From NCBI GenBank assembly GCA_002699145.1, contig PABK01000008.1, forward strand, positions 62,001 to 126,000: a DNA stretch of 64,000 nt, written 5' to 3'. Shown in pieces: positions 10,550 to 51,302 of the stretch. The stretch's first letter is position 1. Each line of letters begins with the position of its first letter. Source of the DNA: Halioglobus sp. (GTDB lineage: Bacteria; Pseudomonadota; Gammaproteobacteria; Pseudomonadales; Halieaceae). A program made the position numbers and the translations under genes. The notes under the pieces were generated by a model. That model saw only the letters and a program-made list of their open reading frames with translations. It made no database searches and had not been told where the DNA came from.

Positions 10550-12805
10550 GTGACCCACAACAACATCGAAACCCTGCGCCGCACCTGCCCCACCTGTGAA
10601 GCCTGTTGCGGGCTGGTGGTCCAGGTCGACCGCGAGCAGCAGAAGATTATTTCCATCAAGGGCGATGTCGAGGATCATCGTTCGCAGGGCTATGTCTGCG
10701 CCAAGTCCCAGGCCTTCAACTACATCTACGAAGACGGCGAACGCCTGCGCCATCCGGTGAAAAAAACCGGCGACGGCTGGCAGGCGATTTCCTGGGACGA
10801 GGCCTTCGATACCATCGCCGGGGAATTCACCCGCATCCGCCAGCAGCACGGCAAGGACGCCATTGCCTTCTACGTCGGCAACCCGCTGGGCCACGATTTC
10901 GCCGCCGGCGTCTACCTGCAGTCGCTGATGTCCGTTGCCGGCACGGAGCGCTTTTTCTCCGCCGGCACCGTCGACCAGCACCCGCAGCAGCTGGTGTGCT
11001 GGGGCCTGATCGGCCACGAGTGGCTGTTCCCGGTACCGGACCTGGACCGCACCGACCTGTTTATCTGCATGGGAGCCAACCCCGTGGTGAGCCAGGGCAG
11101 CATTATCGGCAAACCGGATATCAAGGCGGCGATGAACGCGATACAGGCCCGCGGGGGGCAGTGTGTGGTCATCGACCCGCGCTACACCGAAACGGCGGCG
11201 GTGGCCGACCAGCACATCGCCATCAGGCCGGGCACCGACGCCTGGTTCCTCATGGCCTTCGCCAACGTGCTGTTCAGCAAGGGCGCGGTCGACCCCGGAC
11301 ACCTGGCGCCCCATGTCGACGGCATCGATGCGCTGCGCGAGGCCGTCAGCGCCTATACGCCGGAGAGCACTGAGGCCGTCACCGGCGTGCCCGCCGCGAC
11401 CCTGCGCCAACTGGTGGACAGCTACTGCGCCACCGACAAGGCGGCGCTGTACGGGCGCATTGGCCTGTGCACCCAGGAATTCGGCATGTCGGCCCACTGG
11501 ATGCTGATGGCGATCAACATCCTGGCCGGCAAGCTCGACCGCGAGGGGGGCATGATGTTCGCCACCGCGCCCGTCGGGGGCTCCGGACCGGGCGCCGAAT
11601 CCAGCGAAAAGCCCTATGGCCGCTGGCACTCGCGCGTGCGCGGTGTGCCGGAAACCTGCGGCGAACTGCCGGCGTCCCTCATGGCCGAGGAAATCACCGC
11701 GCCGGGCGAGGAGGTCCGTGCGCTGCTGACCATCTGCGGCAACCCGGTGCTGTCGGTGCCGCGCGGCGACAAGATCCGCGAGGCCCTCGGCAGCCTGGAG
11801 CTGATGGTCAGTCTCGACATCTACATCAACGAGACCACCAGCCAGGCGGACATCATCCTGCCCAGCACGGTGCACCCGGAACACAGCAACGTCGATGTCA
11901 CCTTCCAGAATTTCACCGCGCGCAATTACGCCTCCTATTCCCCGCGCATCTTCGAGCCCGAGGCGGGGCTGAAGGACCTGGGTGAAATCATCCTGGAAAT
12001 CTCCGCGCGCATGGCCGGCCTGGGCCGCGACGAGATGGAGGGCTTTGTCTACCAGGGCATGGTCGACATGGGCTGCCGGCGTGCGGAGCAGGATGGCTAC
12101 GCCCTGGACGCCGAGACCATCAACGCCGCTGTCACCGGCGATTCCGCGCCGGAGCGCTACCTCGACATCATGCTGCGCACCGGGCCCTACGGAGATCGTT
12201 TCGGCGCCAATCCCGACGGCCTGTCACTGGAGAAACTCAAACGCCACCCCCAGGCGTCCATGGACCTGGGCCCCCTGCAATCCCGCCTGCCCGACGTGCT
12301 GCGCACGCCCGGCAAGCGAATCGACCTGATGCACGAGTTGTTCGACAACGACCTGCCGCGCCTGCACGCGCGCTTTGACGAGCTGACACAACAGGCCGCC
12401 GGCACGGCGCCCGACAACGCGATGCAATTGATCGGGCGCCGGCATGTGCGTGACATGAATTCCTGGCTGCACAACCTGAAACCCTATGTCCGTGGCAAGG
12501 ATCGCTGCACGATGCTGGTGAACAGCGCCGATGCCCGGCGCCTCGGGCTTACCGACGGCGGCGCTGCCCGGGTGGTGTCGGCCGTGGGCGAGGCACGGGT
12601 GCCGGTCGAGGTCTCGGACCAGATGATGAACGGGGTCGTCAGTATTCCGCACGGCTTTGGCCATGTGTATCCCGGCTCGCAACAATCCACGGCGGAAGAC
12701 CTGTTGCCGGGCGTCAGTTGCAACGACCTGATCGACGAATCGCTGGATGTCGCCTCCAGCACCTGCGTGGTGAACGGGGTGCCGGTCAGCGTGTATCCCG
12801 CCTGA
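10550..12805 (+). CDS. Molybdopterin-dependent oxidoreductase (DMSO reductase superfamily)
   Basis: Molybdenum/tungsten bis-pterin enzyme of 751 residues. The N-terminus binds a 4Fe-4S cluster through C13-x2-C16-x3-C20 and C50. The central catalytic domains follow, and the C-terminal pterin-binding barrel spans about 630-750, including the GFGHVYPGSQ region. There is no Tat signal, so it is probably cytoplasmic and soluble. The start is GTG with AAGGA upstream; the nearby ATG at 10512 is in another frame and soon stops. No electron-transfer or chaperone subunit lies next to it. The metal ligand position (near SAGTVDQHP) cannot be settled by eye, and the substrate is unknown. The divergent TetR gene suggests a substrate-induced catabolic enzyme. 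Confidence 0.92.
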   Translation: MTHNNIETLRRTCPTCEACCGLVVQVDREQQKIISIKGDVEDHRSQGYVCAKSQAFNYIYEDGERLRHPVKKTGDGWQAISWDEAFDTIAGEFTRIRQQHGKDAIAFYVGNPLGHDFAAGVYLQSLMSVAGTERFFSAGTVDQHPQQLVCWGLIGHEWLFPVPDLDRTDLFICMGANPVVSQGSIIGKPDIKAAMNAIQARGGQCVVIDPRYTETAAVADQHIAIRPGTDAWFLMAFANVLFSKGAVDPGHLAPHVDGIDALREAVSAYTPESTEAVTGVPAATLRQLVDSYCATDKAALYGRIGLCTQEFGMSAHWMLMAINILAGKLDREGGMMFATAPVGGSGPGAESSEKPYGRWHSRVRGVPETCGELPASLMAEEITAPGEEVRALLTICGNPVLSVPRGDKIREALGSLELMVSLDIYINETTSQADIILPSTVHPEHSNVDVTFQNFTARNYASYSPRIFEPEAGLKDLGEIILEISARMAGLGRDEMEGFVYQGMVDMGCRRAEQDGYALDAETINAAVTGDSAPERYLDIMLRTGPYGDRFGANPDGLSLEKLKRHPQASMDLGPLQSRLPDVLRTPGKRIDLMHELFDNDLPRLHARFDELTQQAAGTAPDNAMQLIGRRHVRDMNSWLHNLKPYVRGKDRCTMLVNSADARRLGLTDGGAARVVSAVGEARVPVEVSDQMMNGVVSIPHGFGHVYPGSQQSTAEDLLPGVSCNDLIDESLDVASSTCVVNGVPVSVYPA

Positions 12806-38164: not shown

Positions 38165-39475
38165 CTAGTCGATGCGACCCGACTCCATGCGCCGCGCGTG
38201 GATCTGTTCCAGCTTGTACAGGTCCTGCTGCAATTCGAAGAAGCCGTGCCAGTGCGCGTAGTCGGCGGCGCCCATCATGGCGCCCTGGCGCGCCCGCCTG
38301 CCCTCGTGATGCCACAGGTAGTAGTAGGTGATCTGGAATTCGTCATCCCAGGGGTTGTCCTTGAGCAGGTCGCGCGCGCGCAATTCCTCGAGCATGTCCG
38401 TGGCGGGACGGTAATAGGCCTCGTTGTAGAGTTTCACTGCCTTGTCGCCCTGGGCGAAGAAGCCTTCGGTGTGCGTGCGCGAGTGACAATTGCCGCAAAC
38501 CTGCTTCATTTTCTCGCGGCCGGCAGGCCCGTCACCGAGCAGCGGACTGAGCACGTCATCGGAGCCGCGCACCTTCGACTCGGGCGCCCACAGGTTCCAG
38601 TACAACCGCTCGCTGACGTTGTGCGTCACCGACAGGTCGCCGATACCGCTCATGTGGCAGGTGGCGCAGGTCGGGCCGCGGTAGTCGCCCGGTTCCCAGG
38701 CGTCCGGGGCGGTATCCCAGGTCCAGTCGTCGCCCTGGGTGTTGTACACATGCCCGTGCTTGCTGTTGTTGAAAATCTCGATATTCGGGTGGTCCGGACC
38801 GAGGTGGCAGGAGGCGCAGGCGTTGGGGCGGCGCGCCTCGGCGATATCGAACAGGTGCCGGCTGTGGCAGGCGGTGCAACTGCCGGTGGCGCCGTCGGGG
38901 TAGATGTTGCCCATGCCGTTGTTGGGCCAGGTCTCCGGGGTTGGCCGGTTGTTCTCATCGAGTTCGATTTTCGTGCCGTGGCACTGCATACAGCCGGTTT
39001 CATTGGGGGCGCCGCCAAACTCGGGATGCTCGCGGCCCTCGTGCACCTGGGTCAGGGCGTGCAGGCTGTCCTTGGGAATGATCTGCCGGTAGGCGCGGAA
39101 GTGGCCGCTGGCGTCGAACTGCGCCTTCGCATCCACGTGACAACGCCCGCACACCGCCGGCGACACCAACGCGGAGACAAACACCGGCGTGTCTTCCACG
39201 TTGGCGTGGCGCGCGGCCATCGGGGAATCCTCAGCCACGCGGTGACAGTCGATACAGGAGACGCCGGCGTGGGCGTGGCGGCTCTGTTTCCAGTCCGCCA
39301 CCTGCCCTGGGGTGGTCTCGCGGTGACAGCGGATGCAGGCCTTGCCCTCCTCGCTCATGTGACGGTCCACCTGCAGGGTTTTCACGTTCGCCAGGCTGCC
39401 CATACTGGTGTCGGCCAGCACGGGCAGGCAGGCCAGCGCGGCCAGCAGGAGCAAGACAATGCGACAGACTGACAT
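38165..39475 (-). CDS. Octaheme cytochrome c of the hydroxylamine oxidoreductase (HAO) family
   Basis: Periplasmic octaheme enzyme of 436 residues. Signal peptide about 1-21 (PVLA). Eight CXXCH motifs in order: CIRCH, CIDCH, CGRCH, CMQCH, CTACH, CASCH, CATCH, CGNCH. The C-terminal helix with YYLWHHEGRRARQGAMMGAADYAHWHG is characteristic of the HAO fold. The ATG at 39475 overlaps the NapC/NrfH-type gene's stop (TGATG) and has GGAGG upstream. Homologues in pairs with a NapC-type gene (epsilon-HAO with CycX) are thought to reduce nitrite or hydroxylamine rather than oxidise it. I cannot tell from sequence alone whether the Tyr-haem cross-link of true HAO is present. Electrons would come from quinol through the partner. 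Confidence 0.92.
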   Translation of the reverse strand: MSVCRIVLLLLAALACLPVLADTSMGSLANVKTLQVDRHMSEEGKACIRCHRETTPGQVADWKQSRHAHAGVSCIDCHRVAEDSPMAARHANVEDTPVFVSALVSPAVCGRCHVDAKAQFDASGHFRAYRQIIPKDSLHALTQVHEGREHPEFGGAPNETGCMQCHGTKIELDENNRPTPETWPNNGMGNIYPDGATGSCTACHSRHLFDIAEARRPNACASCHLGPDHPNIEIFNNSKHGHVYNTQGDDWTWDTAPDAWEPGDYRGPTCATCHMSGIGDLSVTHNVSERLYWNLWAPESKVRGSDDVLSPLLGDGPAGREKMKQVCGNCHSRTHTEGFFAQGDKAVKLYNEAYYRPATDMLEELRARDLLKDNPWDDEFQITYYYLWHHEGRRARQGAMMGAADYAHWHGFFELQQDLYKLEQIHARRMESGRID

Positions 39476-40044
39476 CACGGAGCCTCCGTTGCTTCGGGCT
39501 TCATCCAGCCGTGCTCTTCCAGGTGAAAGCCGAGCCGGGCGTGGCCGGCATCATCGTGGCACTCGACACAACTGTAATCATCCGGGTCGTCGAAATAGCG
39601 CCGGTGCGAACGAAAGGCGCGCCGGTTGCTCTCGGTGGCCTCGCGCAGGTACTTGTGACACTCCAGACAGCCCGAATCGTAGACAAATTCTGTGCGCCGC
39701 TCGCGGATGGCGTGCCAGTCGATCTCGTGCGGCTCCTTGAGCAGTTCCATGGTCGGGTCGACGATGCCGTGCTTCGCCTTGATGAGAAAATAGTGAAAGG
39801 CGTTGTCGTGGGGCAGGTGACAATCGTTGCAGGCGGCGCGAAACCCCACCTCGTTGTTGCCGCCGTGGGGCGATTCGCGGTAGGCCGCGGCGATCGGCGC
39901 GTAGGCGTGACAACTGGTGCAGAACTCGTAGTCGGAGGTGGCGTGAAACGCGGTGTCCAGGGCCGCCCAACTGAGTACGGCGATACCACCCAGCGCGGCG
40001 AGACCGATAACTGTCATGACCAGGCGATTGCGCAACAGTTTCAT
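39475..40044 (-). CDS. NapC/NrfH/CycX-type tetraheme quinol dehydrogenase
   Basis: Membrane-anchored tetraheme cytochrome of 189 residues. One N-terminal membrane anchor (about 9-30) precedes four CXXCH motifs: CTSCH, CNDCH, CLECH, CVECH. Such proteins oxidise menaquinol or ubiquinol and pass electrons to periplasmic reductases. AAGGA lies before the ATG at 40044. The stop overlaps the start of the octaheme gene by one base, so the two make a translationally coupled pair like cycX-haoA'. The nearby UbiA prenyltransferase could supply the quinone (inference). Confidence 0.93.
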   Translation of the reverse strand: MKLLRNRLVMTVIGLAALGGIAVLSWAALDTAFHATSDYEFCTSCHAYAPIAAAYRESPHGGNNEVGFRAACNDCHLPHDNAFHYFLIKAKHGIVDPTMELLKEPHEIDWHAIRERRTEFVYDSGCLECHKYLREATESNRRAFRSHRRYFDDPDDYSCVECHDDAGHARLGFHLEEHGWMKPEATEAP

Positions 40045-40224
40045 CTTCAGGCATCCTTGTCGAGCGTATGGCGGCGCGAAAATTTCGGTGGGACGCTATG
40101 ACCCCACAAAGATTACGGCTAGAATATCTCAGCGGTGTGACAGCGCGCAATAGCGCAATCGCGCGTCGACGACCGGCACGGACCGCTCGGCACGCCGCCG
40201 GGCACGGGGTGGGTAGATAACAAC

Positions 40225-41244
40225 ATGATCGACATCAGGATGTGGGCGCGGGCCATGGACAGGATGCCCCGGCTCAGCCAGAGCGAGTGGCAGGCCCTGG
40301 ACCCCGTCGCCAAGTGGCTCATCGCCTGCCGCGCCTCCGTCCTGTTCATGACCTTCACCGCCGCTGCCCTGGGCGGGCTGATGGCCTGGCGCGCGCAGGC
40401 GTTTTCGCTGGAGCTGTGGCTGGCCACGGTACTCGGTTTGTTGTTCGCCCACGCCACCAACAACCTGCTCAACGACTACACTGACTCGCGTCGCGGTATC
40501 GACCGCGACAACTACTACCGCAACCAGTACGGCGTGCACGTGCTGGAAGACGGCCTGATGAGCGAGCGCCAGTTCTGGCGCTACCTGGGGGTCACCGCGG
40601 CCGTGGCGCTGGCGCTGGGCGCCTGGCTGATCCAGCAGCGCAGCGGGCTGACCCTGAACCTGATGCTGGCCGGCGCCTTCTTCGTGCTGTTCTACACCTG
40701 GCCGCTGAAATACTACGGCCTGGGCGAGCCCGCGGTGCTGCTGGTGTGGGGCCCGCTCATGGTCGGCGGCAGCTACTACGTGCTCACCGGCGCCTGGGAC
40801 TGGGGCGTCGCCTGGCTCAGCCTGGTATTCGCGTTCGGCCCAACCACCGTACTGTTCGGCAAGCACACCGACAAACTCGACGCCGACCGCGCCAAGGGGG
40901 TGAATACCCTGCCGGTGATCATCGGCGAGGCGCGCTCGCGGCGCTGGGTGCTGGCGATGATGGTCGGCCAGTACCTGCTGTGTATCGCACTGGTGCTGTC
41001 CGGCCACTTCGGCTGGCCGCTGCTGCTGGTGTTGCTCAGTGCGCCGGCCCAGCGTGAACTGTTCGCCGTGTACAGCGCTCCCAAGCCGACCGTACCGCCG
41101 GCGGACTATCCCGCGGAGATCTGGCCGCTGTGGTTTTCCGCCTTCGCCTTTCGCCATACGCGGCGCTTCACGTCCTGGTTCCTCGCCGCGGTGATACTGG
41201 ACACGGTGCTGGGCCGGCTGGGCGTCGGGACGGGCCTGATTTAA
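40225..41244 (+). CDS. UbiA-family prenyltransferase (MenA-like)
   Basis: Integral membrane prenyltransferase of 339 residues with about eight or nine hydrophobic segments. The two Asp-rich prenyl-diphosphate motifs are NNLLNDYTDSRRGID (about residues 79-93) and KHTDKLDADRAKG (about 214-226). It attaches an isoprenoid chain to an aromatic head group. Similarity of the first motif to MenA-type enzymes and its position between cytochrome operons suggest a quinone, possibly menaquinone, for the anaerobic chain, but the head group is not certain. It is divergent from the NapC-HAO pair and upstream of the mtr-like operon. Confidence 0.88.
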   Translation: MIDIRMWARAMDRMPRLSQSEWQALDPVAKWLIACRASVLFMTFTAAALGGLMAWRAQAFSLELWLATVLGLLFAHATNNLLNDYTDSRRGIDRDNYYRNQYGVHVLEDGLMSERQFWRYLGVTAAVALALGAWLIQQRSGLTLNLMLAGAFFVLFYTWPLKYYGLGEPAVLLVWGPLMVGGSYYVLTGAWDWGVAWLSLVFAFGPTTVLFGKHTDKLDADRAKGVNTLPVIIGEARSRRWVLAMMVGQYLLCIALVLSGHFGWPLLLVLLSAPAQRELFAVYSAPKPTVPPADYPAEIWPLWFSAFAFRHTRRFTSWFLAAVILDTVLGRLGVGTGLI

Positions 41245-41249
41245 ATCAA
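41236..41249. promoter_or_regulatory. FNR/ANR-type binding site upstream of the mtr-like operon
   Basis: CTGATTTAAATCAA matches the FNR consensus TTGAT-N4-ATCAA at 9 of 10 fixed positions and is a near-perfect palindrome. It spans the UbiA stop codon, 142 bases before the MtrA/DmsE-type start. A TATAGT at 41302-41307 could be the -10; then the site is centred near -71, a known class I activator position. Confidence 0.6.
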
Positions 41250-41301
41250 TCTATGTGAGGATACGGCGGACCATGGAATGGCACCACACCAAAGCATAAA
41301 C

Positions 41302-41307
41302 TATAGT
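41302..41307 (+). promoter_or_regulatory. Possible -10 element of the mtr-like operon
   Basis: TATAGT, one mismatch from TATAAT, lies in the gap before the decaheme cytochrome gene. The -35 region 17 bases upstream (TGGCAC) is poor, as expected of a promoter that needs an activator such as FNR. Confidence 0.4.
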
Positions 41308-41390
41308 CACTACAGGTTCTCGACTGCCGGGAGGGGCGTCGGTTGCGCGCGCGAGGTGGTCGTGACGGGAATCATGCGGAGTCCACTAAA

Positions 41391-42272
41391 ATGACAACAG
41401 GACTACGGCTGGCGGCGCTGCTGTTTACTGTGTGCCTGGCGCTGGCCGGTGGCGTCCGTGCCGCCGATGAACCGGGTTGCCTGGACTGTCACGACGACCC
41501 CCAGTCCCCGGAACACGCCATCTACACAACCCTGCACGGCTCCCTCAACGGCGGCGGTGCCCTGGCCTGCACCGCCTGCCACGGCGCCAGCGAGGCGCAC
41601 GATCGGCGCGGCCGCAGGGTGCCCCCCGACATCAGCTTCGGCCCGCGCTGGCCCTCCCCCGTGGAAGACCGCAACGGCAGTTGCCTGTCCTGCCACGAGA
41701 GCGGCGCGCAACTGCTGTGGGCCGGCAGCGCGCACCAGCAGGAAAACCTCGGCTGTGACGGGTGCCACGACAGTCACCGCCAGGCGGACCTCGCCCTGGA
41801 CCATGGCGCGGCCGAGGCGCAATGCCTGGACTGCCACACCGAGGTCAGGGCGCAACTGAACCTGCCCTCACGCCACCCCATTAAAGAGGGTAAGACGGCC
41901 TGCCGCGACTGCCACAACCCCCACGGCGGCCTGGGTGACAGCGCGCTGCACGAGGTGACCCTGAACGACACCTGCTTCGACTGCCACCAGGAGATGCGCG
42001 GGCCCTTCCTGTGGGAACACCAGCCGGTAGCCGAGGACTGCTCCCTGTGTCACCGCCCGCACGGTTCTGTCCACGATCGCCTGCTGACCACGCGCGGCCC
42101 GGCCCTGTGCCAGCAGTGCCACGCGGCGGCGTTCCACCCCAGCGTCCCCTACGGCAGCGAGGGGCTGCCCGGCGCGGGCGCCAACGCCAACGTGCTGGGC
42201 AAGAACTGCCTGAACTGCCACAGCAAGGTGCACGGTTCCAATCATCCCTCCGGCGCGAGGTTGACGCGATGA
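41391..42272 (+). CDS. MtrA/DmsE-family periplasmic decaheme cytochrome c
   Basis: Decaheme electron carrier of 293 residues that, in the known MtrCAB complex, fills the MtrB barrel and wires periplasm to cell surface. Signal peptide about 1-24 (VRAA). Ten CXXCH motifs: CLDCH, CTACH, CLSCH, CDGCH, CLDCH, CRDCH, CFDCH, CSLCH, CQQCH, CLNCH. The ATG at 41391 has GGAG upstream; a longer in-frame start at 41343 would spoil the signal peptide. Its TGA overlaps the ATG of the barrel gene (ATGA). Length is a little under Shewanella MtrA (about 330). It is probably under the FNR-like site 142 bases upstream. Confidence 0.95.
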   Translation: MTTGLRLAALLFTVCLALAGGVRAADEPGCLDCHDDPQSPEHAIYTTLHGSLNGGGALACTACHGASEAHDRRGRRVPPDISFGPRWPSPVEDRNGSCLSCHESGAQLLWAGSAHQQENLGCDGCHDSHRQADLALDHGAAEAQCLDCHTEVRAQLNLPSRHPIKEGKTACRDCHNPHGGLGDSALHEVTLNDTCFDCHQEMRGPFLWEHQPVAEDCSLCHRPHGSVHDRLLTTRGPALCQQCHAAAFHPSVPYGSEGLPGAGANANVLGKNCLNCHSKVHGSNHPSGARLTR

Positions 42273-44545
42273 GGCGGTTTCGACTGAAAGTACTGCCGCT
42301 GCAGGTGGCGCTGGCCGTCACCGCGCCCGCCGCGCTGGCCGCTGACGAGCCGGCCGGGGAAGAGGCGCCGGGACGTTACACGCCACTGGCGCTGGCCAAC
42401 AGGGCCGCCTGGAGCGGCCCGGATGACGCCTTCGCCGGGCGCTTCCAGCTCGGCGGGGCCTACACCTTCGACGACAACTACAGCTTCGGCCAGTACAACG
42501 GCCTGAGCGAGGAGACGCTGACCCTGATCGGCGACCTGCGCTGGCAGGATTACAGCAACGGCGACAGCTACTGGCGCGCGTCTTTTTCCGACCTGGGGCT
42601 GGACACCCGCGAGGGACAGGTCACCTGGGGCATGGCTGACCGCATGCGCCTGACCCTGGGCTTCGATTCACAGCAACAGGTGCGCAACGACAGCGGCGCC
42701 ACGCCATTCAGTGGCGACTACCGCCAGTCCCTCCCCGCGGACTGGGTCAGCGGCGTCAATACCGGCGATTTCAGCGCGCTGGCCGGCGCCCTGCACGGTT
42801 TCGACCGCGAACTGGACCGCGACACCCTGTCGCTGGCCTTCGAGGCGCGCCTGGCGGAGCGCTGGCGGCTGCGCAGCAATCTCTCCCACGAGCAGAAGGA
42901 AGGACACGGCGACATCGGCGCCGGCATCTATATCGACGCCGCCTCGGCGGACTCGGTGCTGCTGCGCGCACCGGTGGACTACGCCACCACCGAGGCCGAC
43001 CTGGGGCTGGCCTTTGCCGGGGATAAACTGCACCTGGACGGCGAGCTCGCCTGGTCGCGCTTCGACAACGACAAGGACCTGCTGAGCTGGCAGAATCCCT
43101 ACGCGAACTTCGGCGCGGACGTCGCCTACCCGGCCGGCACCGGCGGCATGAGCCTGGCGCCCGACAATGAGCAACTGCGCGGCCGGCTCGTGGGACACTA
43201 CCTGTTCTCGCCCAAAGTGCGCCTGCAGTTCGACGGCAGCTACGCCCTGGCCAGCCAGGACGACGACTACCTCGACTACACGGTGAACGACGCGCTGAGC
43301 GTGACTGAACCGCTGCCGGCAGGCGACCTGGACGGCGAGGTCGCCTCGGGCACCTTCAACGGCAAGCTGCTGCTGATGCCCTGGCGCAAGTTCAGCGCGC
43401 AGGTCTACTACCGGCTGCGCGACCGCGACTACGACGTGGACCGCGACGGCTACCTGTACGTGCGCGGCGATGGCGGCGACCAGCCGGACTCCGCGTTGAC
43501 CGTCTACAACACCACCCATGACCTGACCTCACAGACCGGCGGCCTGGAAGCCAGCTATCGCCTGCCCCTGCGCAGCAAGCTGACTCTGGGCTACGCCTAC
43601 GAGGAGGTGGAGCGCAGCAACGCGGCGGTGGAGAAAACCGAGGAAGACCGCTACACACTCACCTACCGCATCCAGCCCTGGTCCAGCGTCAGCGCGCGTA
43701 TGGAACTGCTGTACGCGGACCGCGCGGCGGATACCTACGCGTGGGACCAGTCCTACTACGCGCTGCTGGACGCCCAGCTGATCAATGCCACCCCGGACAG
43801 CCAGCGCTATATCAATCACCCGCAGCTGTACCAGTACTACCTGGCCAACCGCGAACGCTACGAGGGCAAGCTGAACCTGACGGTCCTGCCCGGCGAGCGC
43901 TGGAACCTGAACTTCAACGCCCTGTGGCGCTACGACGACTACGACCAGAGCCAGCTCGGCCTGACCGAATCCGAGTGGATCGGGGGCCACCTCAGCCTCA
44001 GCTACGCCGCGGCGGACGACCTGACTGCGAGCCTGTACGGGGGTTACGACCGCTACGACGGCAACCAGCAGAGCCGCGCCTTCCGCGGCGGCCAGGAAAA
44101 GAATGCCTTCGAGATATTCCCGCCGCTGCCACAGGCCTCTGACCCGAACCAGGACTGGACGCTGGACGCCACGGACCACAGCGTGACGCTGGGCGCAAAC
44201 CTGCACTGGCGGCCCGCGCCCGACTACGAGATCGAGCTGGACTACAGCTACGTCGACACACGCGGCGAACAGGAATTGTCCACCCAGCCAGGCGCCAGTG
44301 TCAGCGCCTCCGACCTGCCGAACGTGAACACCCGGCTACACCATGTGGAGGCCGGGGCGACCTGGCACGTGGTGGACGATGTTTCGCTGCGCCTGGACTA
44401 CCAGTTTTACAGTTACGAATCCGATGACTGGGCGTGGGAAAACGTCGAGGCGAACACCCTCGACAAGGTACTGACTTTCGGCCAGGACAATCCGGACGAG
44501 GATATTCATTACGTGGGCGTGTCGGCGATCTATCGCTGGCAGTAA
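42269..44545 (+). CDS. MtrB/PioB-family decaheme-associated outer-membrane porin
   Basis: Outer-membrane barrel of 758 residues that sheathes the decaheme cytochrome. Signal peptide about 1-25 (ALAA). More than twenty alternating strands follow, ending in an aromatic terminus (SAIYRWQ). The first mature segment (RFQLGGAYTFDDNYSFGQYNGL) matches the family's characteristic start. Shewanella MtrB has a CXXC near its N-terminus; no Cys is visible in this one, as in PioB-like members. Start overlaps the MtrA-type stop by 4 bases. The MtrC-type gene follows 19 bases after the stop. Confidence 0.94.
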   Translation: MRRFRLKVLPLQVALAVTAPAALAADEPAGEEAPGRYTPLALANRAAWSGPDDAFAGRFQLGGAYTFDDNYSFGQYNGLSEETLTLIGDLRWQDYSNGDSYWRASFSDLGLDTREGQVTWGMADRMRLTLGFDSQQQVRNDSGATPFSGDYRQSLPADWVSGVNTGDFSALAGALHGFDRELDRDTLSLAFEARLAERWRLRSNLSHEQKEGHGDIGAGIYIDAASADSVLLRAPVDYATTEADLGLAFAGDKLHLDGELAWSRFDNDKDLLSWQNPYANFGADVAYPAGTGGMSLAPDNEQLRGRLVGHYLFSPKVRLQFDGSYALASQDDDYLDYTVNDALSVTEPLPAGDLDGEVASGTFNGKLLLMPWRKFSAQVYYRLRDRDYDVDRDGYLYVRGDGGDQPDSALTVYNTTHDLTSQTGGLEASYRLPLRSKLTLGYAYEEVERSNAAVEKTEEDRYTLTYRIQPWSSVSARMELLYADRAADTYAWDQSYYALLDAQLINATPDSQRYINHPQLYQYYLANRERYEGKLNLTVLPGERWNLNFNALWRYDDYDQSQLGLTESEWIGGHLSLSYAAADDLTASLYGGYDRYDGNQQSRAFRGGQEKNAFEIFPPLPQASDPNQDWTLDATDHSVTLGANLHWRPAPDYEIELDYSYVDTRGEQELSTQPGASVSASDLPNVNTRLHHVEAGATWHVVDDVSLRLDYQFYSYESDDWAWENVEANTLDKVLTFGQDNPDEDIHYVGVSAIYRWQ

Positions 44546-44564
44546 CACCCGGGAGAGGACAGCA

Positions 44565-46850
44565 ATGCTTACACCCATGCGCAAGCGGATACTGGCGGGC
44601 CTGCTCGTCGTCTGTAGCGGCCTGCTCGTCGCCTGCAGTGGCGGAGGTGGCGGAGACAGCGCCGATGGCGTACAGCCCGGGCCGCCGCCTCCCGGCGGCC
44701 CGGTGGACCCGACGCCACCGGACCTGCCGGATCCGCCGCCCTCCCCCTACGCCGAGGCGCAGCGACTGATTGCCACCATCACCAGCGTGAGCCTGAACGG
44801 CGACAACCAGGCGGTGGTGGAATTCCAGCTTACCGACGGCAGTAACATCGCCATTACCGATCTCACCGTGGACGATGTGCGCTTTGTCATTGCCAAGTTG
44901 GCGGCGAGCAGCCTGGGTAACCTGACCGGCAACTGGCAGTCCTACGTCAACGATATCGAGACCGCCGGCAGCGTCGGACCGGGCACGCAGGATAGGCTGC
45001 AGGCGACCTATGAGCGCGACGGCGAGTTCGTCAACAACGGCGACGGCACCTACGTCTACACCTTTGCCACCAGCCTCAGTGACCTGCCCCAGGAGATTCT
45101 CGACCAGGCGGCGGTCGAGGGCCTGGACCTGTCCTTCGAAGACGATCGCACCCACCGCGTCGCCATCCAGTTCGACAACTCCAACTCCACCGCCAACCCC
45201 AACTATGACTGGGTTCCGGCGACCGGCGCCCTGGCGAGTTTCAGCCGCGATATCGCCGCCACCGAGAACTGCAACGCCTGCCACGATCCACTGGGCATAC
45301 ACGGCGGCAACCGGCGCGAGATCGAGTACTGTGTGACCTGCCACAACCCGGGCAGCACCGACGCCAACAGCGGCAATACCGTCGACATGAAAGTCATGGT
45401 GCACAAGATCCACATGGGCCGCGACCTGCCCAGCGTGCAGGACGGCGGCGAGTACGCCATCTACGGCTTTCGCGACAGCAAGCACGACTATTCCGACCTT
45501 GGCTACCCGCAGGATATCCGCAACTGCGTGAACTGCCACGTCGGCACCGGCACGGTGGGCGAGCGCGAGGACCTGGTGCTCACCGCCCAGGGCGACAACT
45601 GGGCCGAGGTGGCCTCCATGGCCGCCTGCGGCAGCTGCCACGAGGACCTGGATTTCAGCGTCCACGCCGGCGGCCAGGAGGACGACTCGGGCTGCGGCTC
45701 CTGTCACTCCGCCGGCGGCCCCGCGGGCAGTATCGCCGACAGCCACCGCATTCTCAGCCAGGAGGCCAGCGCGCGCTTCGCCGCCGAGGTGGTGCGCGTG
45801 GTCAACAGCATGCCCGGCGACGTGCCGCGGGCGGTCATCGCCATCAGCAACCCGGAGACCGGCGAGCGCTACGACCTGCACAACGACCCGGAATTCGAAG
45901 GCGGGTCCGTGAACGTACGCGTGTCCTGGGACACGCGCGACTACCACAACACCGGCAACGGCGCGGAAGACGCCGGATCCATCTCCGCCAGCGCCCTGAG
46001 CGGCTCCACGGACAACGGCAACGGCACCTACAGTGTGAGCATGCCCATCGCCCTGCCCGACGGCAGCGAGCCACCGGGGGTTGCGGCCTCCGGCAGCGGT
46101 GTCGCGGTGGTCGAGGGGCGCCTGTCACTGGTGCTGGAGGAAGGCGCGGACGCCGAGACCGTCCCCCTGGTCAACGCCCACGGCTTCTTCTCTATCGACG
46201 AACCCGACGCGGTCGCTGTGCCGCGCCGCGATTCGGTGGAACTGGGCGCCTGCCTGGCCTGCCACGGCTCGCTGAGCCTGCACGGCGGCAACCGCACGGA
46301 CAGCATCAACAGCTGTGTCACCTGCCACAACCCACGCAACACCGACCGCGAGGTACGCGAGATCGCGGCCGACCCGCCGACGGACGGCAAGGCGGAGGAG
46401 TCACTGCACTTCAAGACCATGATTCACGGCATCCACGCCGCGGCCATGCGCGAGAACCCGCTGCAGATCGTCGGTCGCAATGGCGGCACAACCCACGTCT
46501 ACGACGAGGAGGAGGTGCACTACCCCGGCAACCTCGCCAACTGCACCGCCTGTCACGGCGACAGCGGCTTCGGCCTGGCCCTGGCCGACGGCGTGCTCGG
46601 CACCACGGTGGACACCGGGGCGGACCACACGGATCCGGCCGACGACACGGTGGTGTCGCCGATGGCCGCTGCCTGCGCCAGTTGTCACGACAGCGATGTC
46701 GCCGCGGCGCACATGGAGTCCCAGGGCGCCAGCTTCGCCACCTCACAGGCGGCGCTGGACAGTGGCGCGGTGGTCGAAACCTGCGTTGTTTGCCACGGCG
46801 AGGGCAAGGCGAACGACGCCTGGGTCAGTCACCAGTCCTTCCTGGACTGA
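44565..46850 (+). CDS. OmcA/MtrC-family decaheme surface lipoprotein cytochrome
   Basis: Cell-surface terminal reductase of 761 residues. Lipobox LLVACS (C24), a Gly-rich then Pro-rich linker (to about 62), then two beta-rich domains, each followed by a pentaheme cluster. The first set is CNACH, CVTCH, CVNCH, CGSCH, CGSCH (about 239-390); the second CLACH, CVTCH, CTACH, CASCH, CVVCH (about 563-750). This 5+5 split with 'IHGGN' after the first haem of each set is the OmcA/MtrC plan. It could reduce metal oxides, humic substances or electrodes, or form a link to other cells. Third gene of the operon, ended by a strong terminator. Confidence 0.95.
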   Translation: MLTPMRKRILAGLLVVCSGLLVACSGGGGGDSADGVQPGPPPPGGPVDPTPPDLPDPPPSPYAEAQRLIATITSVSLNGDNQAVVEFQLTDGSNIAITDLTVDDVRFVIAKLAASSLGNLTGNWQSYVNDIETAGSVGPGTQDRLQATYERDGEFVNNGDGTYVYTFATSLSDLPQEILDQAAVEGLDLSFEDDRTHRVAIQFDNSNSTANPNYDWVPATGALASFSRDIAATENCNACHDPLGIHGGNRREIEYCVTCHNPGSTDANSGNTVDMKVMVHKIHMGRDLPSVQDGGEYAIYGFRDSKHDYSDLGYPQDIRNCVNCHVGTGTVGEREDLVLTAQGDNWAEVASMAACGSCHEDLDFSVHAGGQEDDSGCGSCHSAGGPAGSIADSHRILSQEASARFAAEVVRVVNSMPGDVPRAVIAISNPETGERYDLHNDPEFEGGSVNVRVSWDTRDYHNTGNGAEDAGSISASALSGSTDNGNGTYSVSMPIALPDGSEPPGVAASGSGVAVVEGRLSLVLEEGADAETVPLVNAHGFFSIDEPDAVAVPRRDSVELGACLACHGSLSLHGGNRTDSINSCVTCHNPRNTDREVREIAADPPTDGKAEESLHFKTMIHGIHAAAMRENPLQIVGRNGGTTHVYDEEEVHYPGNLANCTACHGDSGFGLALADGVLGTTVDTGADHTDPADDTVVSPMAAACASCHDSDVAAAHMESQGASFATSQAALDSGAVVETCVVCHGEGKANDAWVSHQSFLD

Positions 46851-46864
46851 GCCTGATCACCCCG

Positions 46865-46895
46865 AACACCCCCGCCTGCGCGGGGGTGTTTTTTT
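46865..46895 (+). terminator. Strong rho-independent terminator of the mtr-like operon
   Basis: AACACCCCCGC pairs with GCGGGGGTGTT around a short loop, followed by seven T. It lies 14 bases after the MtrC-type stop. Confidence 0.93.
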
Positions 46896-47075
46896 GTGCA
46901 GCGCAAGCGTTGACGCGCGGACGCTGCAGGAGCGTCAGGCATGAGCGGCATGCACAGGCATGCACGGCATTGCCTATGCAGCCGGGCACCGAGAACTCAC
47001 GCAACACTCCCACGACACGCCAAAAGTAGGCTACTATTGCCCGGTCACGAGCCAAGGGCGCAGGAGGGAAACGCC

Positions 47076-48206
47076 ATGACGGGTCATTCACGGGGATTGC
47101 TGCCCATCGTACTTTCGCTGCTGCTCGCCGCCTGTGGTGACGCCGTGGAGGAGGCGCCTGCCGAGACAGCCAGACCGGTCAAGTTGTTCACCGTCGCCGG
47201 CGGCGCCACCGACGCCATGCGCACCTATCCCGGCCGCGTCGACGCCTCGCAGCGCGCCGAACTCGCATTTCGCGTACCGGGCAAGCTGCAGGAACTGCCC
47301 GTGCGAGAGGGCGACCTGGTGGAGGAAGGCCAGGTGCTGGCCAAACTGGACCCCACCGAATACGCGCTCATCGTCGAGGACCGCCAGGCCAGGTTCGACA
47401 AGGCGCAGCGCAACTTCAACCGCGGCAAGGAACTGGTGGCCGAGGGCAATATCTCGCGCCTGGATTTCGATCGTATGGAGGCGGAGTTTCGCAGCGCCTC
47501 CGCCGCGCTGTCCCAGGCGCGCAAGGACCTGGAATACACCGAACTCGTATCGCCCTTTACCGGCAGGATCGCCGAGCGTGCGGTAGAGAACTTCGAAGAG
47601 GTGCTGGCCAAGCAGACCGTGATCACGCTGCAAAATATCGAGCAACTCGACGTGGTCATCGACCTGCCCGAATCCGTGGTGCGCGGTATCCGCGGCGCCT
47701 TCCGCAAAGCCAGCGTTGGCACTTCCGCCAGCGAGCCGGCGGCGCGGGCCTCGGCGCGCTTCGAGGGCCACAACAACGAGAGCTTCCCGCTACAAACCAA
47801 GGAACTGGCCACCAAGGCCGACGCACAGACCCAGACCTACCGCGCCACTTTTACCATGGCGGCGCCGGACAACTTTCCCGTGCTGCCCGGCATGACCGCC
47901 ACCGTGGCGCTGGACCTGAGTGAACTGACCAGCGCCGACGCGGTGAAATGGGTGCCGCAGCGCGCGGTGCAGGCCAGCAACGAACTGCAGCCGAGGGTCT
48001 GGCTGCTGGACGCGCAGAGCATGACAGTCAAGCCGCGTCCCGTTGAACTCGGCCGCGTGTCGGGGGATATGATAGAGATCCGCGACGGGCTGGACGGCGG
48101 CGAGGAGATCGTCGCCGTCGGCGCCGCTTATCTCGCCGAAGGTATGCCGGTGACACGCATGGCCGCATCGGAGCAGGCCGTGCCCCGGGCGGACGACCCG
48201 TCCTGA
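47076..48206 (+). CDS. RND efflux periplasmic adaptor (membrane-fusion) lipoprotein
   Basis: MFP subunit of 376 residues joining an RND pump to an outer-membrane channel. The ATG at 47076 has AGGAGGG; the longer in-frame start at 46941 overlaps no signal. Lipobox LLAAC (C20). Seen: lipoyl half-motifs around the helical hairpin (REGDLVEEGQVLAKLDP ... LVSPFTGRIAER), the hairpin at about 95-155, and a beta-barrel and membrane-proximal domain to the end (RDGLDGGEEIVAVG). It is followed 21 bases on by the pump. No outer-membrane channel gene is adjacent, so a TolC located elsewhere is expected. The drug or solute is unknown. Confidence 0.94.
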   Translation: MTGHSRGLLPIVLSLLLAACGDAVEEAPAETARPVKLFTVAGGATDAMRTYPGRVDASQRAELAFRVPGKLQELPVREGDLVEEGQVLAKLDPTEYALIVEDRQARFDKAQRNFNRGKELVAEGNISRLDFDRMEAEFRSASAALSQARKDLEYTELVSPFTGRIAERAVENFEEVLAKQTVITLQNIEQLDVVIDLPESVVRGIRGAFRKASVGTSASEPAARASARFEGHNNESFPLQTKELATKADAQTQTYRATFTMAAPDNFPVLPGMTATVALDLSELTSADAVKWVPQRAVQASNELQPRVWLLDAQSMTVKPRPVELGRVSGDMIEIRDGLDGGEEIVAVGAAYLAEGMPVTRMAASEQAVPRADDPS

Positions 48207-48227
48207 TCAGCGCGGAGCTTCGACTAC

Positions 48228-51200
48228 ATGAACATCGGTGAGTATTCGGTCAGCAACCCGGTCATATCCTGGCTGCTGGTAGTGATTATGGTAGGCGGCG
48301 GTCTCATCGCCTACGAGCAGATGGGAAAACTCGAGGACCCCGCGTTCACCATCAAGTCGGCGAAGATCCTCACCCGCTACCCCGGCGCCACCGCCCGCGA
48401 GGTGCAGGAGGAACTGACCTACCACCTGGAAGACGCGATCCAGAAGATGCCGCAGATCAAGCGCATCAAGATGTCCGTGTCGCGCCCGGGACTGTCCGAT
48501 ATCCTCATCGACTTCAAGGACGAGTACAAGGCGGCGGACCTGCCCAACATCTTCGATGAACTGCGGCGCAAGATCACCGATGTCAAACCGGATTTGCCGC
48601 CCGGCGCGCTGGCGCCGGTGGTGCTGGACGATTTCGGCGACGTCTATGGCATTTACCTGGTATTGACCGGCGAGGGCTACAGCTGGCGCGATCTCTACGA
48701 CACCGCGGACGCGGTGAAGAAGGAGCTGGTGCTGGTCGACGGCGTGCGCAAGGTGGTCATCCAGGGCGAACAGCGCGAGGTGGTGTACCTGGATATCTCG
48801 CGCAGCAAGGTCGCGGAACTGGGCCTGGACCTGGCCGACGTCGCCAGGGTGATCGGCTCGCAGAACGTCGTGGTCGACGCCGGCAGCATCCCCGTCGGCG
48901 ACGACTACATCCGCATGAGCCCCACCGGTGATTTCCGCTCCGTACAGGAGATCGGCGACGTCCTGATCAGCTCCACCGACAGGAAGCTGATACGCCTGAG
49001 CGACTTCGCCACCATCACCCGCGCCTACGAGGAAGTGCCGGCCAAGATCTACTACGTCAACGGCAAACCCGGCCTGAGCATCGGTATATCCATGCTCGGT
49101 GGCGAGAACGTGGTGGAAGTCGGTCGCAATGTGTCGGCCAAGCTGGACGAACTGCTGCCGGTGATCCCCATCGGCATGCAACTGGAATCTGTCTACGACC
49201 AGCCGCTGGAGGTCGAGAACTCGGTCAGCGGTTTCCTGGTCAGCGTGGGCCAGGCGGTGGCGATCGTACTCATCGTCCTGCTCGCCTTCATGGGGCTGCG
49301 CACCGGTATTGTCATCGGCGCGGTACTGCTCATCACGGTCGCCGGCACCCTGTTCATCATGAACATCTTCGGCATCGAACTGCAGCGCATCTCCCTGGGC
49401 GCCCTGGTCATCGCCCTGGGCATGCTGGTGGATAACGCCATCGTGGTCGCCGAGGGCATGCTGGTACGCATGGAATCCGGCATGAAGGCGATGCAGGCCG
49501 CCGGCGAGGCGGTGGGGAAAACCATCTGGGCATTGCTCGGCGGCACGGTTATCGGCATTCTCGCCTTCTCCGCCATCGGCCTGTCGCCGGACAACACCGG
49601 CGAGTTCGCCAGTTCACTGTTCTACGTCATCCTCATCTCCCTGGCGCTGAGCTGGGTCACCGCTATCAGCACCACACCCCTGCTCTGCGCGCTGCTGTTG
49701 AAGACCAGCGAAGGTGACAGCGGCGACAGCAAGGATCCTTACGCCGGGCGCCTGTTCCAGGGCTATCGCGGTCTCGTCGGCTGGGCCATCGATCACCGCT
49801 GGGTGACCCTGGGCACGGTGGTGGGCCTGTTCGTCATCTCCGTGATTGGGTTCGGCTCGGTGAAAAGCGGCTTCTTCCCCGATTCCAACACGCCGATCTT
49901 TTTCGTCGACGTGTGGGAGCCGGAGGGCGCCGACATTCGCACCACGCGCGAGGACACACTGCGCGTCAGCCAGTTCCTGCGCGAGCAGCCGGGCGTGGTG
50001 CAGACTACCTCGGTGATCGGGGGGCCGCACCAGCGTTTCACCCTGGTCTACGACGCCAGGGAACCCACGCCGACCTACGGCCAGATCATCGTGCGTACCG
50101 AGCAGCGCGACCAGATACCCGCGGTCACCGAGGCGGTGCGCGAGTACATGGCGCAGCAGATGCCCTGGACCGATCCCATCATCAAGCCCCTGCGCATCGG
50201 GCCCGGTCGCGACTCCCGCATCGAGGCGCGTTTTTCCGGACCGGACCCGGCCGTGCTGCGCCGGCTCTCCGCCAAGGCAGAGGCCATCATGCGCGCCGAT
50301 GCCGACGCCACGGATGTGCGCAATGACTGGCGTGCGCCGATGAAAGTCGTCACCCCCGTATTCAACGAACAGGTTGCGCGGCAGCTCGGCGTCGACCGCG
50401 AGGCCCTGGGTGACGCGCTCAAGTACGCCTTCGACGGTCTGCAGGTAGGTACCTACCGCGACGGCAACCGGCTGCTGCCGATCCGCCTGCGCGCGCCCGC
50501 CGACGAACGCGGCAGCCTCGACGACGTGCGCGACATCCAGGTGTGGAGCCCCATCCTGCGGCGTTCCGTCCCTGTCTCGCAGGTGGTCTCGGGCTACCAG
50601 ACGACCTGGGAGAACACCGTTATCCGCGGGCGCAATCGCATCCAGACCATCATCGCCTCCTGCAACCCCCTGCACGGGCTGGCGGCGCCGCTGCTGGAGC
50701 GCCTGCGCCCGCAGATCGAAGCGATAGAACTGCCCCCGGGCTACCACCTGGAATGGGGTGGCGAGTACGAGGATTCCGTCAATGCGCAGGCGGGGCTCGC
50801 CACGTCGCTGCCGGTGGGCTTCCTGCTCATGATACTCACCAGCATCTTCCTCTTCGGCAAGCTGCGCCAACCGCTGATCATCTGGCTCACCGTGCCACTG
50901 GCCATTGTCGGCATTACCGCCGGCTTGCTGTCCATTGACGGGGCCTTCGACTTCATGTCCCTGCTGGGCGCCCTGTCGCTGATCGGCCTGCTGATCAAGA
51001 ACGCCATCGTGCTCATCGAGGAAATAGACCAGCAGATCGAGAGCGGCGACAAACCGCCCTACGACGCGCTACTGGACTCCTGCGTCAGCCGTATGCGGCC
51101 GGTCATGCTCGCCGCGACCACCACCATACTGGGCCTGATTCCGCTGCTCAGCGACGTGTTCTTCGTCAACATGTCGGTCACCATCATGGCCGGCCTGGGC

Positions 51201-51302
51201 TTCGCCAGCATCCTCACCCTGGTGGTGGTGCCGACGCTGTACGCGGTGATGTTCAAGATACAGAAAGATGAAGCTGCGGGCAGCGCAACAACGGTCACCT
51301 GA
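48228..51302 (+). CDS. RND-family efflux permease
   Basis: Proton-driven inner-membrane pump of 1024 residues with the duplicated AcrB plan. There is one N-terminal membrane segment, a large periplasmic domain (about 32-330), five membrane segments, then the same again. TM4 carries the proton-relay region LGMLVDNAIVVAEG. The second half has LIGLLIKNAIVLIEEI and RMRPVMLAATTTILGLIPLL. Its sequence places it with the HAE1-like/multidrug branch rather than with heavy-metal CzcA pumps (inference). Adaptor gene directly upstream; same operon. Confidence 0.95.
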   Translation: MNIGEYSVSNPVISWLLVVIMVGGGLIAYEQMGKLEDPAFTIKSAKILTRYPGATAREVQEELTYHLEDAIQKMPQIKRIKMSVSRPGLSDILIDFKDEYKAADLPNIFDELRRKITDVKPDLPPGALAPVVLDDFGDVYGIYLVLTGEGYSWRDLYDTADAVKKELVLVDGVRKVVIQGEQREVVYLDISRSKVAELGLDLADVARVIGSQNVVVDAGSIPVGDDYIRMSPTGDFRSVQEIGDVLISSTDRKLIRLSDFATITRAYEEVPAKIYYVNGKPGLSIGISMLGGENVVEVGRNVSAKLDELLPVIPIGMQLESVYDQPLEVENSVSGFLVSVGQAVAIVLIVLLAFMGLRTGIVIGAVLLITVAGTLFIMNIFGIELQRISLGALVIALGMLVDNAIVVAEGMLVRMESGMKAMQAAGEAVGKTIWALLGGTVIGILAFSAIGLSPDNTGEFASSLFYVILISLALSWVTAISTTPLLCALLLKTSEGDSGDSKDPYAGRLFQGYRGLVGWAIDHRWVTLGTVVGLFVISVIGFGSVKSGFFPDSNTPIFFVDVWEPEGADIRTTREDTLRVSQFLREQPGVVQTTSVIGGPHQRFTLVYDAREPTPTYGQIIVRTEQRDQIPAVTEAVREYMAQQMPWTDPIIKPLRIGPGRDSRIEARFSGPDPAVLRRLSAKAEAIMRADADATDVRNDWRAPMKVVTPVFNEQVARQLGVDREALGDALKYAFDGLQVGTYRDGNRLLPIRLRAPADERGSLDDVRDIQVWSPILRRSVPVSQVVSGYQTTWENTVIRGRNRIQTIIASCNPLHGLAAPLLERLRPQIEAIELPPGYHLEWGGEYEDSVNAQAGLATSLPVGFLLMILTSIFLFGKLRQPLIIWLTVPLAIVGITAGLLSIDGAFDFMSLLGALSLIGLLIKNAIVLIEEIDQQIESGDKPPYDALLDSCVSRMRPVMLAATTTILGLIPLLSDVFFVNMSVTIMAGLGFASILTLVVVPTLYAVMFKIQKDEAAGSATTVT

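Follow-up and report, generated by a model that had tools for sequence, protein, structure and literature searches.

Where does an outer-membrane electron conduit of the MtrCAB kind obtain its electrons when the mtr cluster lacks the CymA-type gene seen in that of most classed relatives? This question is raised by a locus of Halioglobus sp. (Halieaceae) found on a 64,000-nucleotide stretch of contig PABK01000008.1 (positions 62,001 to 126,000; hereafter the window), which belongs to a genome that we coded G000 (assembly of 5.2 Mb in 61 contigs). Six genes lie there within less than 9 kb: genes for an octahaem cytochrome of the HAO family and for a NapC-type tetrahaem protein on the minus strand, divergent from genes for a UbiA-family protein, MtrA, MtrB and MtrC on the plus strand (Table 1). 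A first-pass annotation, made from the sequence alone, had counted 4 + 8 + 10 + 10 CXXCH motifs, two overlapping gene pairs, an MtrB barrel and a UbiA-family gene in this space, all of which we confirmed; it had also bounded the block at 38165 and 46895, of which the start is right, while the mtrC stop codon lies at 46850. We find that this locus probably combines an MtrCAB conduit of a kind known in Halieaceae with a NapC-octahaem pair resembling the reverse hydroxylamine:ubiquinone redox module (reverse-HURM), with NapC taking over from CymA. The earlier proposal of one quinol-linked system with two outlets is thereby supported in part: comparison makes NapC plausible as the common quinol outlet, while the view of the two operons as one inherited unit is not supported.

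We searched 140 Halieaceae genomes, in which MtrC was found in 33, an intact octahaem gene in 17 and a window-type NapC in 21 (one cut by a contig end). The mtr loci of 29 of the 33 MtrC genomes were then classed for the presence of a CymA-type gene (G002, G025, G102 and G104 were left out because of cut contigs; G009, G032 and G047 were classed from split or cut loci). Nineteen of the 29 loci hold such a gene, the products of which score about 200 bits against PF03264, versus about 100 for the window NapC, and are 27-32% identical to it, an identity at which the window NapC cannot be taken for the same subtype as the relatives' CymA. NapC was found adjacent to, and divergent from, UbiA/mtr in nine of the ten CymA-less loci (G000, G012, G014, G015, G027, G093, G094, G097 and G099), compared with NapC adjacency in four of the 19 CymA-holding loci (Fisher p 0.001, not kinship-corrected). 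This NapC is the sole PF03264 match in genomes G000, G012 and G014; the only other match in G015 and G027 is a stretch inside another multihaem frame, and G093, G094 and G097 each contain one match to the window NapC. Pseudohalioglobus sediminis NY5 and P. lutimaris HF004 come close to the window in layout and have a cluster without CymA, to which mtrA-DOMON is added. Since nine of the ten CymA-less mtr loci have NapC adjacent and since the window genome holds no other NapC-family match, it is likely that NapC took over from CymA and supplies both outlets.

NapC is also retained beside mtr in genomes without any octahaem match, namely G012, the pair G014 and G015, and the pair G096 and G098, which fall in three places among the octahaem-paired NapCs. 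The NapC tree on which this was read has 60 rows (L043, L050, L126, L129, L131, L132 and L140, which are genome repeats, and the cut L122 were left out) and, like all our trees, is of a quick kind without a mixture model. The ratio of non-synonymous to synonymous substitution rates (dN/dS) of NapC was 0.06 between G096 and G098 and 0.075 between G014 and G015, the latter being a rough value at a saturated dS of 2.5. Because of this retention in three places of the tree, NapC thus seems to be kept for something other than the octahaem protein, mtr being the obvious candidate. G096 and G098 also hold CymA, so that NapC is not needed there as a replacement.

The arrangement that we propose consists of two electron-transfer modules with one common quinol dehydrogenase, NapC standing in for CymA, and we consider it about evenly balanced between right and wrong. 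The NapC-type protein, in which a single N-terminal membrane helix can be read, would draw electrons from membrane quinol. It would pass them both to the periplasmic octahaem reductase, and from there probably to nitrite and/or hydroxylamine, and to MtrA, from which they would cross the MtrB barrel and reach MtrC, the decahaem protein at the surface. In the window genome, NapC would take the place of the CymA-type gene of most classed relatives. One NapC for two outlets has a precedent in Shewanella, where CymA supplies several periplasmic reductases besides the surface ones (PMC6295460), and the locus may work like this CymA hub, one outlet leading to the surface and another to a periplasmic reductase. 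Both systems associate a quinol dehydrogenase of the NapC/NirT family with MtrCAB, whereas they differ in that the window NapC shows just the 27-32% identity given above to the CymA-type proteins of its relatives' mtr clusters and in that two menaquinone markers are under cut-off in the window genome, CymA being reported as specific for menaquinone-7.

As for the conduit, MtrA matched chain A of PDB entry 6r2q (E 5e-69) and MtrB matched chain B of the same entry (E 2e-26), while the PDB matches of the MtrC-type protein, which carries a lipobox-like LVAC, were MtrF, OmcA and MtrC. By family membership, these three proteins are an MtrCAB electron conduit, predicted to transfer electrons across the outer membrane. 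When each of the four haem proteins was shuffled 2000 times, the mean number of CXXCH motifs was 0.02-0.12 and the maximum 3; among window open reading frames of at least 90 aa, at least two such motifs were found only in these four proteins. The two gene overlaps, at 39475-39478 (octahaem/NapC) and 42269-42272 (mtrA/mtrB), measure 4 bases each.

Table 1. Features of the Halioglobus sp. locus, with positions in the window.
Feature	Position	Strand	Length (aa)	CXXCH motifs	Profile match or remark
Octahaem c-type cytochrome, HAO family	38165..39478	-	437	8	PF13447, 104 bits (cut-off 21.9)
NapC/NrfH-family tetrahaem quinol dehydrogenase (predicted)	39475..40044	-	189	4	PF03264, 100 bits (cut-off 24)
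Divergent intergenic region, NapC to UbiA	40045..40224	.			Scanned for FNR-like boxes
UbiA-family prenyltransferase, MenA/UBIAD1-like	40225..41244	+		0	PF01040, 104 bits (cut-off 34)
MtrA/DmsE-type periplasmic decahaem cytochrome	41391..42272	+		10	TIGR03508, 262 bits (cut-off 192)
MtrB/PioB outer-membrane barrel	42269..44545	+		0	TIGR03509, 356 bits (cut-off 240)
OmcA/MtrC-type decahaem surface lipoprotein (predicted location)	44577..46850	+		10	TIGR03507, 481 bits (cut-off 209)

The window MtrB (42269-44545) contains no cysteine; the MtrB of Shewanella has an N-terminal CXXC. Genes for an RND efflux adaptor and permease (46992-51302) follow mtrC directly on the same strand. Elsewhere in the window, at 10550-12802 on the plus strand, a molybdopterin oxidoreductase of 751 aa resembles the formate dehydrogenase/thiosulfate reductase families; it stays far under the NCBIfam cut-offs of all the matches listed (for NapA, 58 bits versus more than 900), and it is possibly a further anaerobic enzyme.

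The cluster type itself is known already: a "Group 6" of mtrCAB clusters was described by Baker et al. (2022, mBio, PMC8805035), mostly from Halieaceae and with up to four further cytochromes, whose neighbours include an inner-membrane tetrahaem protein (c-cyt group 6), a periplasmic octahaem protein (ohc) and mtrA-DOMON. We take the window NapC to be c-cyt group 6 and the window octahaem protein to be ohc, equating them by description alone. The window cluster shares with Group 6 its family, the mtrA-mtrB-mtrC order and a single mtrC, whereas it has neither CymA nor mtrA-DOMON and is followed by the RND pump instead of hemH. Extracellular electron transfer, which the first-pass annotation had found unusual for such an organism, is therefore no surprise, MtrCAB in Halieaceae having been in print since 2022. 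The main text of PMC8805035 has no occurrence of hydroxylamine, ubiA or prenyltransferase, and we found no account of the wiring of Halieaceae mtr clusters in a literature of which related papers were judged by their titles.

Across the Halieaceae genomes, NapC and MtrC occurred together in 19 (p 1e-12), octahaem and MtrC in 16 of the 17 octahaem genomes (p 4e-11; neither value is kinship-corrected), and octahaem and NapC in 14 of the 140. The octahaem gene adjoined mtr in eight of the 16 genomes with both, and in the eight others it was on another contig or far off (in G047 a link is possible, given its short contigs). A tree was built from MtrA+B+C with 32 of 34 genomes (G100 and G047 were dropped as too short), on which the fewest changes required were 10 for the octahaem gene (next to mtr, elsewhere or none), 3 for NapC adjacency and 4 for CymA, gains and losses not being told apart. 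The block as a fixed unit was rejected on the grounds of these eight genomes, and the block is not an obligate unit. Unlinked cytochrome operons in relatives, which the first-pass annotation had named as the observation that would speak against it, are thus found for the octahaem gene and not for NapC.

A genome scan gave 58 octahaem loci, from Gammaproteobacteria to Chloroflexota, a set that is not independent of our Halieaceae genomes since the two overlap in part (G023, for example, is L043). In 52 of these loci the gene immediately upstream, in the same orientation, is NapC; among the six others, L097 is a partial locus, L084 starts at a contig edge, and NapC is distant in L098 and missing from L055-L057. 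For 35 of the 58 loci, chosen by hand, the genome was searched for MtrC, which was over cut-off in ten: seven Halieaceae, a Ketobacter metagenome-assembled genome (MAG), Wenzhouxiangella limi and a Planctomycetota MAG that passes only with neighbouring pieces in frame. The 25 searched module genomes without MtrC over cut-off include all 13 from Marinobacterium, Oceanospirillum and Neptuniibacter, which also speaks against inheritance of the two operons as a unit. The NapC-octahaem module therefore reaches wider than its link with mtr. In a count made after removing clusters judged to be overlapping false frames, the next commonest neighbour family was a Crp/FNR-type regulator (10 of 58 loci; one member checked by Pfam), and besides this regulator and NapC no conserved neighbour was found that would indicate what the octahaem protein acts on. 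FNR-like boxes with one mismatch were detected in G014 and G015, and such boxes lie upstream of NapC in 3 of 51 named loci, versus 0.8 expected by shuffling; the divergent region of the window has one site with two mismatches, at the UbiA start. The modules of L052 (the Ketobacter MAG, with the record title "metal_reducer") and L054 (Alteromonadaceae bacterium Bs31) nest in the Halieaceae part of the NapC tree, which suggests transfer. On a single contig of the Ketobacter genome, two matches exceed the MtrC cut-off.

What might the octahaem protein do? By sequence, its best PDB match is 4qo5 from Ignicoccus, followed by HAO and anammox HAO-like proteins. Reducing and oxidising HAOs are told apart by a cross-linking tyrosine, the Campylobacterota type having Trp in its place and Met eight positions before (PMC8940962); this tyrosine is also absent from the proteins considered in PMC3701875, and a histidine is found at the site in reductive HAO ancestors (PMC12758564), showing that the residue varies. 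We aligned the window protein with those of 57 of the 58 named loci (alignment A2; the partial L097 was left out) and found Trp410 in every one of the 58 rows and Met402 in 54 of them, at a place set by the published spacing, where the HAO of N. europaea did not align. Met402 is missing from L077, which has a NapC neighbour, and from L055, L056 and L057, which have Lys instead and no NapC neighbour. The three latter are Halieaceae genes (L055 7211-8434, L056 4435-5694 and L057 10001-11179), and their Lys402 perhaps reflects a changed electron donor. Since the Trp410/Met402 signature is conserved, the window protein is probably a reducing-type relative of HAO and a predicted reductase, most likely of nitrite or hydroxylamine; a hydroxylamine-oxidising HAO was rejected, given Trp in every row at this place judged by spacing. 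An octahaem-like stretch with three stop codons (G092:C1:1670739-1671227), in a genome without MtrC match, is apparently a decaying copy.

A close functional parallel of the pair is the reverse-HURM of Nautilia profundicola (HaoA with CycB/NapC, PMC3701875), where an octahaem HAO relative without the critical tyrosine is likewise fed by a NapC/NrfH-family tetrahaem protein; in the window, by comparison, the octahaem and NapC genes adjoin, and Hcp, a later enzyme of that pathway which turns hydroxylamine into ammonium, is unmatched in the genome. Among solved structures, the Ignicoccus hospitalis octahaem cytochrome (4qo5) comes closest in sequence and the reducing HAO-like complex of Kuenenia (6h5l) in fold, whereas both have other partners, other hosts and low identity (19% over the fold alignment with 6h5l).

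The UbiA-family protein carries two Asp-rich stretches, NDYTD and DKLDAD. Its best NCBIfam matches, PRK05951 and the MenA models, are all below cut-off (82 bits against MenA cut-offs of 277 and 264, and 62 versus 102 for TIGR00751), and its only PDB match is UBIAD1 (8djk, E 1e-13). Among 48 genomes, the gene was found in 17 of 19 MtrC-bearing and 5 of 29 other family members (p 8e-7, not kinship-corrected; the five include a partial match in G034). Of 77 relatives searched for MenD, G054 alone exceeded the cut-off, a genome without MtrC match, whereas neither G000 nor any of the 19 MtrC-bearing genomes among those searched did so; MqnC was over cut-off in none of 18 genomes including G000, nor in any of the four MtrC-bearing ones tested. 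The MqnC match of G000 (313 versus 428 bits) lies inside an 881-aa frame, which we take to be a fused CofG/CofH-type protein. With MenD and MqnC, the only two markers tested, under cut-off, the idea of this UbiA as the MenA of a normal menaquinone pathway is weakened. In favour of a role dedicated to the locus, UbiA stays with mtr in the window, and neither ferrochelatase nor NnrS was found among the ten window genes scanned. Against it, UbiA lies away from mtr in G014 and G015, and in mtr-less relatives it can lie close to NnrS (L146, by cluster membership) or to ferrochelatase (L148), so that its linkage with mtr may reflect an insertion site. More generally, NnrS-family genes are found near UbiA in L125 and L131 (both examined by Pfam) as well as in L121 and L146. 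In two genomes of one genus, G032 and G099, a FAD-binding-like protein of 685-688 aa is encoded between UbiA and the mtrA-DOMON gene (L121 2044-4110, L131 9293-11350). It is conceivable, if decidedly improbable, that UbiA, as a prenyltransferase travelling with the conduit, prenylates a scavenged naphthoate headgroup (dihydroxynaphthoate, DHNA, from neighbours), giving a low-potential quinone for a NapC that feeds surface and periplasmic reductase without any menaquinone synthesis of the cell's own. The quinone auxotroph Lactiplantibacillus plantarum, which contained menaquinones MK-6 and MK-7 after growth in DHNA (PMC10746273), is a precedent for this and no more.

Several points weigh against NapC standing in for CymA beside a reductive periplasmic outlet. 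CymA and NapC are held together by four loci (G023, G096, G098 and G103); G032, on split contigs, has neither CymA nor a window-type NapC beside mtr, so that a third donor or an assembly gap is possible; and G099 has a second NapC-family match elsewhere in its genome. The Fisher values ignore kinship, and a test on independent pairs of the tree, numbering 3 on starred branches (4 on all), cannot reach significance: on average, 0.5 of the 3 pairs combined CymA loss with NapC adjacency, and 2.5 showed no difference in adjacency. In the window's divergent region (40045-40224), no sequence came within one mismatch of an FNR-like box. Hcp (TIGR01703) was over cut-off in 1 of the 140 family genomes, which is not G000. 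Finally, the AlphaFold model of the octahaem protein (pLDDT 70.6) matched 6h5l and 6hif at a TM-score of about 0.3, too weak for an active-site comparison. Part of this would be expected if the two operons were independent neighbours, NapC serving the octahaem protein only and MtrCAB being fed by another, unrecognised inner-membrane donor; the site would then be common since both insert there and both suit low oxygen. The octahaem genes lying apart from mtr, the module genomes without MtrC (7 of the 10 over cut-off being Halieaceae), the state of G032 and the native-site look of UbiA near ferrochelatase or NnrS in mtr-less relatives all agree with such independence. NapC remaining beside mtr without octahaem in three places, with low dN/dS in two sister pairs, speaks against it, as does its being the sole PF03264 match in G000, G012 and G014, and we regard independence as possible but doubtful.

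Electrons might also flow inwards, MtrCAB taking them from Fe(II), reduced minerals or other cells and NapC or CymA reducing ubiquinone, as proposed for Mto and Pio. The near absence of MenD and MqnC over cut-off would fit this direction, many Fe(III) oxides being hard to reduce from a ubiquinone pool. Baker et al. (PMC8805035) mention mtoC/mtoD for uptake in other groups. However, the pairing of this NapC with an octahaem protein of the reducing type would point outwards from quinol, and the window encodes an MtrC-type lipoprotein, which Mto and Pio systems are not known to have. For the window, inward flow strikes us as improbable. Whichever way the conduit runs, the octahaem protein could be a detoxifying or electron-buffering cytochrome for NO, hydroxylamine or a sulfur oxyanion rather than a respiratory enzyme. 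Such a role is compatible with a common NapC, its likelihood overlapping with that of the other readings. The missing Hcp match and the NnrS-family genes near UbiA in relatives would agree with detoxification, but the quinol dehydrogenase partner in 52 of 58 loci fits respiration, and we consider the former unlikely.

The NapC-octahaem pair is a candidate nitrite or hydroxylamine reductase with a distribution from Gammaproteobacteria to Chloroflexota. Because none of the 19 MtrC-bearing genomes searched exceeded the cut-off for MenD, nor any of the four tested that for MqnC, the locus also raises the question of which quinone drives the MtrCAB of Halieaceae, and in which direction electrons move. 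Should NapC feed both outlets, relatives in which it stands beside mtr without an octahaem gene would be natural separations of the two branches, and they would show quinol dehydrogenases being swapped during the evolution of extracellular electron transfer.

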